The position numbers and the translations under genes are program-made. This document shows, piece after piece, positions 9,224 through 36,976 of a DNA stretch of 36,976 nucleotides. The notes below the pieces were generated by a model. That model worked only from the letters and a program-made list of their open reading frames with translations. It was not told the DNA's origin and ran no database searches. Origin of the DNA: an uncultured bacterium (lineage in GTDB: Bacteria; Latescibacterota; UBA2968; UBA8231); assembly GCA_937942165.1 (NCBI GenBank), contig CALDFW010000028.1:1-36976 (forward strand). The letters run 5' to 3'. Numbering within the stretch: the stretch's first letter is position 1; the number at the start of each line of letters is the position of its first letter.

Positions 9224-10303
9224 TCAGTGCGCTGCCACCGCAGCCTCTTGATTATCGAAGAGCTGTCCACAGGCTGCATCGATGTCGCGACCGCGGCTCT
9301 CGCGCACTGTAAATTCGGCACCGGCCCCTTCTAGTGCGCGGTAAAAAGCTTTCAGACGCGCCTGAGAGGGGCGCCTGAAGTCGCTCTCCGATCCCAGCTC
9401 GTTGTAGGGTATGAGATTAATTTTACAGGGAACGTCTGCCGTTAGCTGAGCAAGTCGGACGGCATCTTCGTCCGAATCAGTCACCCCATCCATCAACACG
9501 TATTCGAAAGTGACTCCATAGCCGCGCAGCTGATGAAACTCACGCGCGACTTCAAGAAGGTCGTCGATCTTGAAGCGACGGTTAATAGGCATGAGCTCTT
9601 CCCGAACGGCGTCGGTTGTCGCATTGAGCGATATCGCCAACCCGACGTTGAGTTCCTCGTGAGCGAGCTTGCGAATCCCCGGAACGTAGCCTGCCGTCGA
9701 TACGGTAATTCGACGACCCCCTAAGCCAACGCCTTCTGTTTGCCGCATGAGATAGAGAGCACGAACCACCGCGTCGTAGTTGAGCAAAGGCTCCCCCATA
9801 CCCATCATTACGACGTTGGTCACCCGCTCGCCTCGCTCATGCGCATAGGCTGACACCTGAATAAGCTGATCGAGAATATCTCCCGGGGTCAAGTTGCGCA
9901 CTAACCCCATGCGACCCGTCGCGCAAAACTTGCAGTCTAAAGGGCATCCGACCTGCGAAGAGATACACACCGTGCGACGCGCACCGTCGACAATAAGGAC
10001 CGACTCAATCCGCTCACCCGTAGGCACTTCAAAGAGAAATTTAACCGCCTGACCGGTCTGCGATTCGCGCTGCGCGACGAGTCGCAGACGCGTAACAAAA
10101 GCAACCTCACCCAGCGCGGTGCGAAGTGACTTGGAGAGGTTTGTCATCTCGTCAATCTCGGCTACGCCCTTGTTGTGCACCCAGTCAAAAATCTGTCTTG
10201 CACGGTAGGAAGGCTCTCCCAACTCGGCGACAAAGGCCTCTATCTCGGCAGGTAACATGCTCTTTAAGTCTGCGCGCGAGGCATCAGCTCTTTGTATACT
10301 CAT
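9224..10303 (-). CDS. rlmN: Dual-specificity 23S rRNA (A2503)-C2 / tRNA (A37)-C2 methyltransferase RlmN
   Basis: This 359-residue radical-SAM enzyme has the cluster motif C120-x3-C124-x2-C127 within SQVGCPLDCKFCATGRMGL. It also has the SAM-binding GMGEPLLNYD block, HEELNVGLAISLNA and PINRRF, and the C-terminal catalytic cysteine C345 in RGRDIDAACGQL. RlmN uses that cysteine and a methyl-cysteine relay to methylate C2 of A2503 in 23S rRNA and A37 of some tRNAs. Length and all key residues are normal, and it lacks features that would suggest Cfr. It lies head to head with the M23 peptidase gene and is followed by the YdjM-like gene. Confidence 0.97.
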   Translation of the reverse strand: MSIQRADASRADLKSMLPAEIEAFVAELGEPSYRARQIFDWVHNKGVAEIDEMTNLSKSLRTALGEVAFVTRLRLVAQRESQTGQAVKFLFEVPTGERIESVLIVDGARRTVCISSQVGCPLDCKFCATGRMGLVRNLTPGDILDQLIQVSAYAHERGERVTNVVMMGMGEPLLNYDAVVRALYLMRQTEGVGLGGRRITVSTAGYVPGIRKLAHEELNVGLAISLNATTDAVREELMPINRRFKIDDLLEVAREFHQLRGYGVTFEYVLMDGVTDSDEDAVRLAQLTADVPCKINLIPYNELGSESDFRRPSQARLKAFYRALEGAGAEFTVRESRGRDIDAACGQLFDNQEAAVAAH

Positions 10304-34065: not shown

Positions 34066-34102
34066 CAAAAAGAGGGGCGGGAATATCCCGCCCCTCTTTT
34101 TT
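34066..34102. terminator. Strong bidirectional rho-independent terminator
   Basis: GAGGGGCGGGA (34072-34082) pairs perfectly with TCCCGCCCCTC (34086-34096) around a three-base loop. It is preceded by AAAAA and followed by TTTTTT. It ends the flagellin gene on the plus strand and also serves the convergent PqqD-like gene, whose stop lies in the T-run. Confidence 0.93.
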
Positions 34103-34484
34103 ATTTTTTAATCCATTTCTTACCGCTGGCCCCTCCCGGATCAGGCGGTCCCTTCTCCCCTTCCAAGACAAAACCGATAAAGCGCTTTTCGCCCAGCATT
34201 TTTAGATATTGTAGCAACGAGACTTCGGCTTCTTTGCGGTTGAGCTGATACGTATCGCTCAACTGCTCAATCATATCACCAACCGTATTCCGGCCGTTGC
34301 ACATCTGCCAGACCTCGGTGCCGACTTCGTCGAGCGTAATCTTTCTCTTCTTCGGAATGTAAAACAGCTTTGAGAGCAAGCGGACTTTCCACGTGTCCTG
34401 ACGAACGACGCTTATTTGAACTTCGCCTTCGTCGGTAGTCTCCCAATCAAGCGAGTCATTCCTCGTCGGTCGGGACGACATCAT
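34101..34484 (-). CDS. PqqD-like (RRE-fold) protein
   Basis: From the Met at 34484 the product is 127 residues; an in-frame Met at 34526 would lie deeper inside the upstream gene. The core (about 48-105) matches PqqD: KRKITLDEVGTEVWQMCNGRNTVGDMIEQL, then YQLNRKEAEVSLLQYLKMLGEKRFIGFV. This is the winged-helix RRE fold that binds peptide precursors in RiPP pathways and also occurs in unrelated contexts. The N-terminal 45 residues (SLDWETTDEGEVQISVVR, FYIPKKR) are extra. A basic/Gly-Pro tail closes it. No radical-SAM protein or precursor peptide is visible. The start overlaps the upstream 331-residue gene by about 29 bases, so coupling is likely. Confidence 0.8.
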   Translation of the reverse strand: MMSSRPTRNDSLDWETTDEGEVQISVVRQDTWKVRLLSKLFYIPKKRKITLDEVGTEVWQMCNGRNTVGDMIEQLSDTYQLNRKEAEVSLLQYLKMLGEKRFIGFVLEGEKGPPDPGGASGKKWIKK

Positions 34485-35451
34485 CGCCCCCCGATTTAAC
34501 TTCGGCTTCTTCGATAAAATGGCCATGGACGACCGTTTCCACTATGTCTGAAGCATCGTCTTTTTTTCGATACAGATATTCGACGACGCTGATTTTATCT
34601 TGATCCTGACGATGCCATATCCGGGCATCCATAAACAGGCGCGGACGCGGATTCACAAAGGGAAGCGGGCGCAGCAGCTGGCGCCAGCGACTGCGCGGAC
34701 GTCCCGCCAAGCGCAAGCCCACGTGTCCTTCCACCTCTTCCCGCGTTATATCGATAACAAAATCGCGCAGCTGTTTTTTAAAGAAGGCCGGATACCACTG
34801 CTCTACGTCACTGCCTTTGAGCAACAGTCGAGCCATACTGAGTCGATGGACGCGACATTCTTTGCGCCCCTGCTCAAAACGCAGTTGAATATGACCCGAC
34901 TTTAACTCGTGCCCGGCCAGCGCAAATTCTGCCGGCATAAAAAAGCGCAGTCCGTACACGCACCACAGGTACTCTTCGCGGTCGGCCTCCTCGCGCAGCG
35001 ATCGAAAAATCCGCTCAACAACGTCGATTTGATCTTCGTCGCGCTGTGCTAAGACTCGCAGCAGCACAACGCGCTGCGTAGAGACGAAGCGGAGCGCTAT
35101 ATTAAACGCCCGAAAATCAGCATCCCACGTAAAAACCTCGTAGTCATATCCATCCAACCACTGTTTTTCCCGCAGGAAACGCGCCCGGCGCTGCACATCA
35201 AAGCCCGCTCCGGCCTTGTCTGCTTTCTTTTTCAGACCTTCAAGATAGCGATCGACCAAGTCGCTGAGGGGAACGCCTACTTCGCGCCCTTTCAGCTTGC
35301 GCCATTCGATCTCCGCTCGCACTATTTCCGCATCGTCTAAGCGTGCATATCCCTTCTCAGCATCGCCGTCAACGCGCCCTAGATTCCAGTCACTTGGCAC
35401 GCGCAAACGCAGTCCCTGCCAGCCGAAATCTTCCCAGTCTTTTTCAGCCAT
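34456..35451 (-). CDS. Unknown cytoplasmic protein with two related halves
   Basis: This 331-residue protein has no signal peptide or TM helix. Its halves look like duplicates. Residues about 8-155 begin GWQGLRLRVPSDWNL and end IDVVERIFRSLRE. Residues about 163-310 begin VYGLRFFMPAEFAL and end ISVVEYLYRKKD. GLRxxxPxxxxL openings of this sort are seen in PsbP/DcrB-like domains, but I cannot name the family with confidence. The last 20 residues are acidic. The ATG directly follows the stop of the DUF6785-like gene (TAAATG) and the 3' end overlaps the PqqD-like gene, so the three are probably one operon. It may help a membrane complex formed by the DUF6785-like protein. Confidence 0.65.
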   Translation of the reverse strand: MAEKDWEDFGWQGLRLRVPSDWNLGRVDGDAEKGYARLDDAEIVRAEIEWRKLKGREVGVPLSDLVDRYLEGLKKKADKAGAGFDVQRRARFLREKQWLDGYDYEVFTWDADFRAFNIALRFVSTQRVVLLRVLAQRDEDQIDVVERIFRSLREEADREEYLWCVYGLRFFMPAEFALAGHELKSGHIQLRFEQGRKECRVHRLSMARLLLKGSDVEQWYPAFFKKQLRDFVIDITREEVEGHVGLRLAGRPRSRWRQLLRPLPFVNPRPRLFMDARIWHRQDQDKISVVEYLYRKKDDASDIVETVVHGHFIEEAEVKSGGDDVVPTDEE

Positions 35452-36976
35452 TTAAAATATCAAGACATCGACCGATTTCTGAATGAGCGCGATACCAACC
35501 GATGCCATCCCCATTAGGGCCATACCGCAGGAAAACCCTACGGCGAGGATCGGTGCATACTGCAGCCATTCTTTCCGGCCGTACTTGTTCCAGAAATAGT
35601 AGCGAGCTAGTAGTGCACCTATGACTTCTGTGACGACAAAGTGCGGTAACACTGTCAGCGATCGCACAAAACCAAAGATGAGTAGGATCGGGAGTCCGAG
35701 CACGGACAGCAGAGCAAAACTGACGACGCCGAAACCCGTCCCAATCGCAATCACCTCAGGCTTGAGCGCGCGGAAAAGATACGGCACATCCGTCGAACGC
35801 TGAATCCAGGAGGACGTAAAGAGCGGATCTGTATCCACCTCGAAGTAGTAGTTCCATCCAGCGGGAACCTCTTTTTCAGATCGGACAAAGAGCGTTGGTC
35901 GCGGGTCGCTCACAAAAGAATCCATTTCCGGGCCAACCGGAATGATGCCGGGCAGTCCCGCAGAGATTTCCTCACTTGGGTCGCTAGCGTCGCGCAAGAA
36001 ACGGTCGGCGGCAATATCCGGTTCGCCTTCGGCAAAGTGAGTGTAGAAAACTTGCGTTTCCGACCAAGGTCCCACCTTACCAAACTTCCCTTCCGTATCA
36101 AGCCAGTCATCGTCGACTAATCGCGCACGCCAGTACCACCACTCGTCCTCGATAAGATTCGCCGGCGTCCAGTCTGCGCGTAAGGCATCCGTATTGAGTT
36201 CCTGACGCATCGTTCCGGTCATAAACAGGCACTGCTGATAGGCTCGCAGACGCCAGATCAACTGCGCGTAGGGGTAGGATGCGGACGGGATCGGAGCGAG
36301 TTTCCAGATGTACGAACCGTAGAGAAAGCTGGTGAACAAAATAATGGGCACCATGAATATTTCTGCTCGCATGATGCTTGTAAATTGGGTACCCGTAAGC
36401 TCAATCTCGCGGAATTTCTGCGTCTGAGCACCGTAGTTCCCAATGGGGAACGGAATAAACCAAATATCTACGCCGCGGTATCCCGACAGGATAATTGTTG
36501 CCTCGCGCACAAAGGGTATTTCCACTGTCTGCCCCACTAACCCAACCAAACGCGCATTTACAAACGATTGAAACGGGGTAAAGACGAATCCAAAAAAGAG
36601 GAAAAACCAGATAAATTGGCTGAATCCGGGCAGCAACCAAGCCGCGATGCCGATCAGTGCCGTAGTTGCCACCGCATAAAGCCCGAGCGCAATCCATATG
36701 GGGAAGTCACCGCGTCCCTGAGGTACGGTAAAACTGCGTCGGTCTCCGCTGGCTTCGCTGGCAGCACGCGAAGCACGAACTCCCTGAACCACCTGATAGA
36801 TACCGATCAGCGCGATGGCGATTGTCGTCCCAATACCAAAGCTCATCCAGAAATCGACGTTATTGACGAAAAAGGTGTCAATCGTTCCCATGCCTTGGCG
36901 CCACAGCGTGAGATAGGGCTCATCCCGCCAAGGGGGCGCATAGGTGTAGAGAATCGGATTTGCAATCGCTGCAACA
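35452..36976 (-). CDS. DUF6785-like multi-pass membrane protein, 5'-truncated
   Basis: The frame stays open to the window edge: 28 extra codons precede the Met at 36891 (ending ...DEPYLTLWRQG before MGTIDTFF), with no stop. That Met is probably internal and the real start is outside. The visible 508 residues contain about seven TM helices, with a soluble region rich in Asp, Trp and Tyr (about 265-390) between helices. Blocks such as GTIDTFFVNNVDFWMSFGIGTTIAIALIGIY and GYRGVDIWFIPFPIGNYGAQ resemble DUF6785, a large membrane family known from Poribacteria and related phyla. A cluster of the 331-residue protein and a PqqD-like protein follows. Transport is plausible, but no substrate can be inferred. 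Confidence 0.65.
   Translation of the reverse strand, partial: VAAIANPILYTYAPPWRDEPYLTLWRQGMGTIDTFFVNNVDFWMSFGIGTTIAIALIGIYQVVQGVRASRAASEASGDRRSFTVPQGRGDFPIWIALGLYAVATTALIGIAAWLLPGFSQFIWFFLFFGFVFTPFQSFVNARLVGLVGQTVEIPFVREATIILSGYRGVDIWFIPFPIGNYGAQTQKFREIELTGTQFTSIMRAEIFMVPIILFTSFLYGSYIWKLAPIPSASYPYAQLIWRLRAYQQCLFMTGTMRQELNTDALRADWTPANLIEDEWWYWRARLVDDDWLDTEGKFGKVGPWSETQVFYTHFAEGEPDIAADRFLRDASDPSEEISAGLPGIIPVGPEMDSFVSDPRPTLFVRSEKEVPAGWNYYFEVDTDPLFTSSWIQRSTDVPYLFRALKPEVIAIGTGFGVVSFALLSVLGLPILLIFGFVRSLTVLPHFVVTEVIGALLARYYFWNKYGRKEWLQYAPILAVGFSCGMALMGMASVGIALIQKSVDVLIF

Follow-up and report, generated by a model that had tools for sequence, protein, structure and literature searches.

Genes for PqqD-like proteins serve as beacons for hidden peptide natural products, in particular the ribosomally synthesised and post-translationally modified peptides (RiPPs), whose leader peptides are bound by a RiPP recognition element (RRE). 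According to the RRE-Finder paper, finding a PqqD-like protein close to regulators, enzymes and transporters is strongly indicative of a RiPP cluster, while for some discrete RREs located apart from lasso machinery it was left open whether they are DNA-binding proteins or represent unknown RiPP classes (PMC7470986). A term search of the main text of a 2025 structure-based RRE paper returned none of FtsX, ABC or membrane. Here a PqqD-like gene is described from one end of a 36,976-nucleotide stretch of DNA (the window; contig CALDFW010000028.1 of assembly GCA_937942165.1) belonging to an uncultured Latescibacterota bacterium, where it follows genes for a tandem-domain protein, B, and a large membrane protein resembling oligopeptide transporters (OPTs). 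We propose, with a probability of about 0.45, that these three genes form the 3' end of an operon encoding a membrane transport machine of several subunits, combining an FtsX-type ATP-binding cassette (ABC) motor with an OPT-like transporter and the pair formed by PqqD and B. The described systems closest to the motor are the mechanical 'type VII' ABC systems MacB, LolCDE and FtsEX, none of which, to our knowledge, has OPT-like, PsbP/Mog1-tandem or PqqD subunits. Each part alone resembles a known family or fold; we know of no system that the assembly matches, and no description joining PqqD, FtsX, M28, OPT and PsbP parts was found in the open-access literature searched.

Structure of the operon

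The genes for PqqD, B and the membrane protein are the 3' end of one minus-strand operon that continues past the end of the contig (Table 1), this contig (C28) being one of 221 in a 3.46-Mb genome of 73.7% estimated completeness. An earlier interpretation of the letters and open reading frames (ORFs), the sequence-only reading, had described three minus-strand genes that abut or overlap, and all three ORFs are present, as is the TAAATG junction joining the stop of the membrane-protein gene to the start of B. The overlap of about 29 bases that it gave for the last two genes becomes one of 71 bases if PqqD starts at an upstream ATG (34526). This is the most likely start, because the residues N-terminal of the earlier-annotated one are conserved in relatives (R12 and M15 are invariant, and A14 nearly so, among 21 sequences). 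A flagellin gene, recognised by Pfam, converges on PqqD from beyond a strong hairpin, which none of 200 shuffled sequences equalled in stability; as this hairpin separates the two, PqqD is the last gene of the operon.

Further genes had also been suspected past the right edge of the window, and were found there. The last 141 bases of the window recur at the end of contig C183, in which the frame of the membrane protein runs on to a start at L004:1034 (L004:3-1034, minus strand), giving about 805 aa in all; orthologs at three other loci (L036-L038) have 804-810 aa. Only 33 bases upstream of this gene lies one encoding a 1588-aa fusion of an M28 peptidase-like domain with an FtsX permease (M28FtsX), itself preceded by Hpre_diP_synt_I (Gx-type) and NusG_II genes. 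Successive genes of the operon are separated by 33 bases and 0 bases and then overlap by 71 bases, with no gap sized for a precursor gene. The genes are under purifying selection, with ratios of non-synonymous to synonymous substitution (dN/dS) of 0.08-0.24 in the 11 of 12 comparisons with unsaturated dS; this holds for both B and PqqD, one PqqD pair being saturated at synonymous sites.

Table 1. Features at the right-hand end of the window
Feature	Position	Strand or setting	Basis or remark
PqqD-like protein, 141 aa	34101-34526	minus	ORF; PF05402, E 1e-11
B, predicted tandem PsbP/Mog1-like protein, 331 aa	34456-35451	minus	ORF; predicted model
Putative OPT-like multi-transmembrane protein, C-terminal 507 codons	35452-36975	minus	open at window edge
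Terminator-type hairpin	34068-34100	between PqqD and convergent flagellin gene	-29.6 kcal/mol, z -6.33

Conservation and distribution of the gene set

Among 60 related genomes, B is present in 53 and PqqD is detected by its profile (E < 1e-40) in 52, the two sets agreeing except for one genome (G055) in which B lies at a contig end. As would be expected of the functional unit that the sequence-only reading had suggested, OPT-like, B and PqqD genes stand together at 24 of 25 loci from the window's own family; the remaining locus (L020/L040) has a 635-aa ORF with no match in Pfam between OPT and B (L040:9146-11053). In families f5 and f9 the whole set forms one operon, M28FtsX-OPT-B-PqqD-small FtsX-ATPase, and in family f7 (L164) PqqD adjoins the small FtsX and ATPase genes, with B located elsewhere. 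A strong small-FtsX ortholog (E at most 1.6e-49) was detected in 14 of 16 genomes searched, including the query's own. Across 64 genomes of the phylum, PqqD and the OPT-like protein agree in 59, being found together in 54 and both missing from five (Fisher p = 9e-05), but four of these five genomes represent a single family, such that the association is phylogenetically confounded. The other neighbours of B-PqqD in families f3 and f4 (SprA, Obg, DprA, NADH dehydrogenase, sulfatase and SUF genes) were considered as partners and rejected, varying between families or being housekeeping-like.

When about 85,000 species genomes were scanned with the PqqD alignment alone, 79 loci were kept. Of these, 48 were counted in the Latescibacterota group on the basis of record title and similarity, some of the titles reading Gemmatimonadetes or only 'bacterium'. 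The same-strand neighbours at the 79 loci include B at 61 (counted within 300 bases), the OPT-like protein at 37, M28FtsX at 33, and small FtsX and the ATPase at 18 each; B, FtsX and the ATPase occur in combination at 15 loci, and with the OPT-like protein as well at 10. Outside the Latescibacterota group, B is found at 16 of 31 loci and FtsX plus ATPase at 14. Complete or near-complete operons are found in Armatimonadetes (L123, L124, L134, L136, L138, L149), Lentisphaerae (L148) and genomes labelled Actinomycetota (L137, L139). In one Planctomycetota genome (L177) all parts lie in one cluster, as PqqD-B-DUF6785-OPT-M28FtsX and FtsX-ATPase, while in a Desulfurococcales archaeon FtsX-ABC-ABC adjoins OPT-DUF6785-M28FtsX (L173) and PqqD-B is found on another contig (L147). 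Altogether, the scan and the genome searches recovered these parts from Latescibacterota, Armatimonadota, Lentisphaerae, Planctomycetota, a Desulfococcus and Desulfurococcales archaea, often in the order M28FtsX, OPT-like, B, PqqD, small FtsX, ABC ATPase. When 16 genomes reached through their PqqD loci were searched in full, the OPT-like protein and M28FtsX were detected in the same 13 (two of which were known beforehand), the M28FtsX matches covering both the N-terminal and FtsX parts, and both were absent from one Zipacnadia genome and two Firmicutes.

In these Firmicutes, Thermosediminibacter and Thermoanaerobacter, PqqD is positioned directly behind a true OPT transporter (PF03169, E 1e-100). 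Among 26 genomes of that class, counting the query, there are five PqqD matches, all of which adjoin this OPT; three have internal stops in the aligned stretch, and some copies may be damaged or mis-bounded. Genome-wide, neither M28FtsX nor an OPT-like gene was found in these two Firmicutes, B not having been searched for at this scale. Because PqqD sits behind a true OPT here, an OPT-type protein is the partner that accompanies this PqqD subfamily most constantly, and the pair would represent a two-gene version of the machine in cultured bacteria.

That PqqD accompanies OPT even where the rest of the set is not seen would also suit a second explanation, in which PqqD is a structural adaptor, its groove binding by strand addition a conserved tail on the cytosolic side of either the OPT-like protein or M28FtsX, with no free peptide, and in which B and PqqD would be subunits serving the assembly or regulation of the transporter. 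A soluble C-terminal region of M28FtsX, following the last hydrophobic segment (approximately residues 1431 to 1588), and the lack of any precursor-sized gap in the operon are both consistent with this. However, the RRE grooves that have been characterised bind free leader peptides, and the fit of a tail to this one is putative; the adaptor explanation is regarded as rather unlikely.

The PqqD-like protein

The match of the window PqqD to PF05402 is real (45.4 bits against a Pfam cut-off of 23.4), as the sequence-only reading had proposed in describing an RRE-type domain. By contrast, the score against TIGR03859, the equivalog model for PqqD of PQQ biosynthesis, is 29.9 bits, under the NCBIfam cut-off of 46. 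The predicted structure (mean predicted local distance difference test score, pLDDT, of 81.6) aligns with the TbiB1-leader complex 5v1u (Z 11.6, 84 of 84 residues, root mean square deviation (rmsd) 2.1), with the leader-bound lasso B1 protein 6jx3 (Z 11.3, 85 residues aligned, rmsd 1.9) and with a PqqD structure (Z 9.6), although Foldseek E-values are modest (best 3e-03). As modelled, PqqD holds a complete RRE fold of three strands and three helices, as found in leader-bound RREs. The groove, which from knowledge of RRE structures we take to be formed by beta-3 and alpha-3, is kept unevenly: alpha-3 is the best conserved of ten elements in the alignment (mean identity 0.84), whereas beta-3 reaches only 0.52.

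These proteins hence resemble discrete RREs and PqqD proteins (PqqD, TbiB1, lasso B1) in having the RRE fold across the whole domain and a conserved alpha-3. They differ in possessing an N-terminal signature of their own, P-x-R-N-x4-W, and some 18 additional residues inserted before beta-3. The signature is present at 67 of the 79 loci, including L142; archaeal copies, and a small number of others, keep it only partly. A further difference from discrete RREs is that no modifying enzyme or precursor is seen nearby in the gene maps read.

This last point bears on whether PqqD instead serves a distant radical S-adenosylmethionine (SAM) or other modifying enzyme of a RiPP pathway, the linkage to OPT and FtsX being that of an ordinary exporter of the product. 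PqqD is a classical RRE, and the RRE-Finder rule quoted above would place such a gene, near transporters, in a RiPP cluster. However, at 75 of the 79 loci the genes of 200-800 aa within 6 kb include none bearing a CX3CX2C motif (the four exceptions were not examined), a stricter radical-SAM motif scan was negative at all 79, and no recurrent modifying enzyme or precursor gene appeared in the gene maps read, which covered ORFs of 50 aa or more alongside the motif scan. On these scans a RiPP cluster was rejected, and this origin of the linkage is considered highly improbable. The sequence-only reading had likewise noted no visible radical-SAM or precursor gene; no conserved one was seen, and the missing partners are FtsX/ABC proteins. 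In the part of the window's ORFs that was scanned, Pfam named a single radical-SAM gene (9224-10303), which is of RlmN type, lies some 24 kb away and has no relation to PqqD.

Protein B

No significant family match to B was found in Pfam or NCBIfam, nor any match in a sequence search of the PDB at E 10, and hydropathy predicts no signal or transmembrane segment. Its description as a two-repeat protein by the sequence-only reading is borne out, since the halves align to each other (hhalign E 6.8e-05, probability 63%) and each has its own structural match in the predicted model (pLDDT 88.3): residues 4-155 with the PsbP protein CyanoP, 2xb3 (Z 13.2, 140 residues aligned, rmsd 3.1), and residues 158-315 with Mog1, 1jhs (Z 11.5, 142 residues aligned, rmsd 3.9). 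From this model, B consists of two PsbP/Mog1 domains in tandem. Further matches are to DcrB and to SciW, an Eag chaperone (Z 10.8 each), and to EagT6 (Z 9.9). The fold is a common one with many roles, and sharing it shows no function for B.

With the Eag chaperones (DUF1795; SciW, EagT6), B has in common the PsbP/Mog1 fold, the lack of a signal or transmembrane segment and the presence of two such domains together. However, the domains of B are fused in tandem, while Eag is a dimer of single domains, and no type VI genes were noticed around B. Nor is B an Eag chaperone by sequence similarity, there being no match to DUF1795 in Pfam at E 1.

The membrane components

The piece of the membrane protein encoded in the window has no Pfam match, DUF6785 (PF20581) included, and matches TIGR00728, for the OPT superfamily, at E 2.5e-05 with 23 bits against a cut-off of 128. 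The best-scoring relative, the Lentisphaerae copy, aligns with PF03169 over nearly its full length at 20.8 bits against a cut-off of 25.8, while none of 11 aligned members reaches any NCBIfam model at E 0.01. Comparison of the OPT-like profile with one of true OPTs, consisting of two sequences only, gave an hhalign probability of 2.8%; that with DUF6785 proteins gave E 3.3e-04 and 38%, and DUF6785 against the OPT profile gave 0.1%. The family resembles the oligopeptide transporters of PF03169 in size (approximately 660-810 aa), in its 11 hydrophobic segments by a simple scan (counted in an 810-aa ortholog) and in occurring, like true OPTs, adjacent to PqqD. Unlike true OPTs, its members fall under the curated cut-offs, and long forms such as that of the window are about 140 residues longer than short ones. 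These comparisons partly support the membrane protein being OPT-like rather than DUF6785 proper. Of the earlier description as DUF6785-like, the distant profile similarity stands and the Pfam match is lacking.

M28FtsX contains Peptidase_M28 (6e-08), MacB_PCD (2e-08) and FtsX (3e-15) domains. FtsX (PF02687) is shared with the small FtsX protein, whose partner is an ABC ATPase (PF00005). FtsX permeases, MacB_PCD and a small dedicated ATPase adjoining the small FtsX are all as in MacB, LolCDE and FtsEX; in contrast with those systems, one permease here is a fusion of about 1600 aa with an M28-like domain. The canonical metal-ligand motif of M28 peptidases is HxD / DD / EE, in place of which M28FtsX has YYD / AEQ / HH. 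The three motifs never occur together in 28 distinct rows (one of them empty) from 47 aligned sequences, the archaeal L141 protein retaining HYD only. Because the usual ligands are lost, the M28-like domain probably binds rather than cuts; as the other residues now at these places are conserved, it may alternatively perform another chemistry. The C-terminal region was tried as a third PsbP-like copy and rejected (hhalign probabilities of 1.2% and 0.6%).

M28FtsX and the OPT-like protein occur in several copies in Latescibacterota, where the family has expanded. The genome of the window has additional M28FtsX copies on contigs C152, C136, C4, C15 and C54, several of them next to OPT-like or DUF6785 genes, and neither B nor PqqD lies beside them in the stretches read. 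On C54, a paralogous M28FtsX-DUF6785-OPT-like set (L005:2-7656) lacks both; the 635-aa gene on this contig is DUF6785 (Pfam, 4.9e-87).

A putative hybrid transport machine

In the proposed machine, the small ATPase, small FtsX and M28FtsX would constitute an ABC motor of the mechanical MacB/LolCDE/FtsEX type. The outer M28-like domain may catch a substrate outside the cell, ATP-driven movement of FtsX would pass it to the OPT-like subunit as its path, and PqqD and B would take it over on the cytosolic side, the reverse direction also being possible. The RRE groove of PqqD might hold a peptide segment, either of a peptide handled by the OPT or of the OPT-like subunit's own tail, and B could be a chaperone of PqqD or its adaptor to the FtsX motor. 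The composition of this putative machine is well supported by the co-occurrence of its genes; that the parts form a physical complex, that a peptide is the ligand, the direction of movement and the role of B are what we infer.

Several observations weigh against this proposal. Families f3 and f4 have B and PqqD close together among other genes, with M28FtsX-OPT elsewhere in the genome, and in most of the window's own family it is small FtsX and the ATPase that are located elsewhere; no close small-FtsX ortholog was found in the window's genome (73.7% complete) or in G048. Of several M28FtsX-OPT sets in the window's genome, only one adjoins B and PqqD. Among the 64 genomes of the phylum, four have the OPT-like protein with no PqqD match (G025, G042, G103 and G055, the last being that with B at a contig end), and PqqD alone is present in one (G104). 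Beyond the Latescibacterota group, PqqD has no partner beside it at 12 of 31 loci, two of these being the Firmicutes in which it stands behind a true OPT. Finally, membership of the OPT family is weak, the profile matches being sub-threshold.

A bolder version of the hybrid machine, put forward tentatively, is that it is of a new kind, common to bacteria and archaea. An RRE would here have moved out of peptide natural-product biosynthesis to become the cytosolic substrate receptor of a transporter that is a hybrid of ABC (FtsX) and secondary (OPT-like) types, and a catalytically dead M28 domain would be its outer receptor. The sequence-only reading had imagined an RRE repurposed in a membrane system not described before: the co-occurrence of the trio, the RRE fold and groove helix and the genes beyond the edge agree with it, while the identities of the parts have changed, to an OPT-like protein and a tandem of PsbP/Mog1 domains. 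The claim that RREs can serve transporters as receptors is testable. The large cross-phylum set of PqqD-like genes found here would then mark a transport machine instead of hidden peptide products, which would account for some of the 'orphan' discrete RREs and would assign parts of a machine to large unannotated proteins, M28FtsX and the OPT-like protein, as well as to B.

Neighbouring genes

Genes flanking the set hint at envelope or glycan functions, and not at one substrate. At L131:2430-11784, B-PqqD-FtsX-ATPase follows BamA, LpxC/FabA, LpxA and LpxI genes, in a position where a Lol-type exporter might be expected, and the ORFs of L135 have the same order with near-identical starts. In Latescibacterota, an RmlD-type gene and two GT2 genes precede small FtsX-ATPase (L155-L161; identified by Pfam for L155, with one GT2 for L157), the other loci having ORFs of similar size. 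In Desulfurococcales (L140, L141, L147), PqqD-B directly follows starch-synthase-type and GH57 genes (by Pfam for L141), and the archaeal FtsX-ABC/OPT cluster L173 is likewise flanked by GH57 genes (by Pfam).

The first two of these settings would suit an outward machine, in which PqqD and B act as an Eag-like pair of cytosolic chaperones delivering a hydrophobic or leader-bearing protein or peptide to an FtsX/OPT exit, perhaps for envelope or surface-glycan assembly. The matches of B to SciW and EagT6 point the same way, these proteins being described as binding effector transmembrane helices in the cytoplasm (PMC7773334). However, the breadth of roles of the PsbP/Mog1 fold noted above limits what can be drawn from such matches, and the parts are also present in archaea. 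We know of no archaea with an outer membrane of the BamA/Lpx kind, and OPT proteins are importers, making an outward machine appear quite improbable.

Two further settings of PqqD differ from those above. In WS1/Zipacnadia and an Armatimonadetes genome (L120, L126, L128), a PqqD protein of about 200 aa follows a metallophosphatase-type gene (by Pfam for L120) and not transport parts. In family f8 (L053, L054), a gene for a probably secreted protein of 703-725 aa with a Rha78A-type Ig or Fn3-like domain (by Pfam for L054) lies downstream of PqqD, with a slight overlap.

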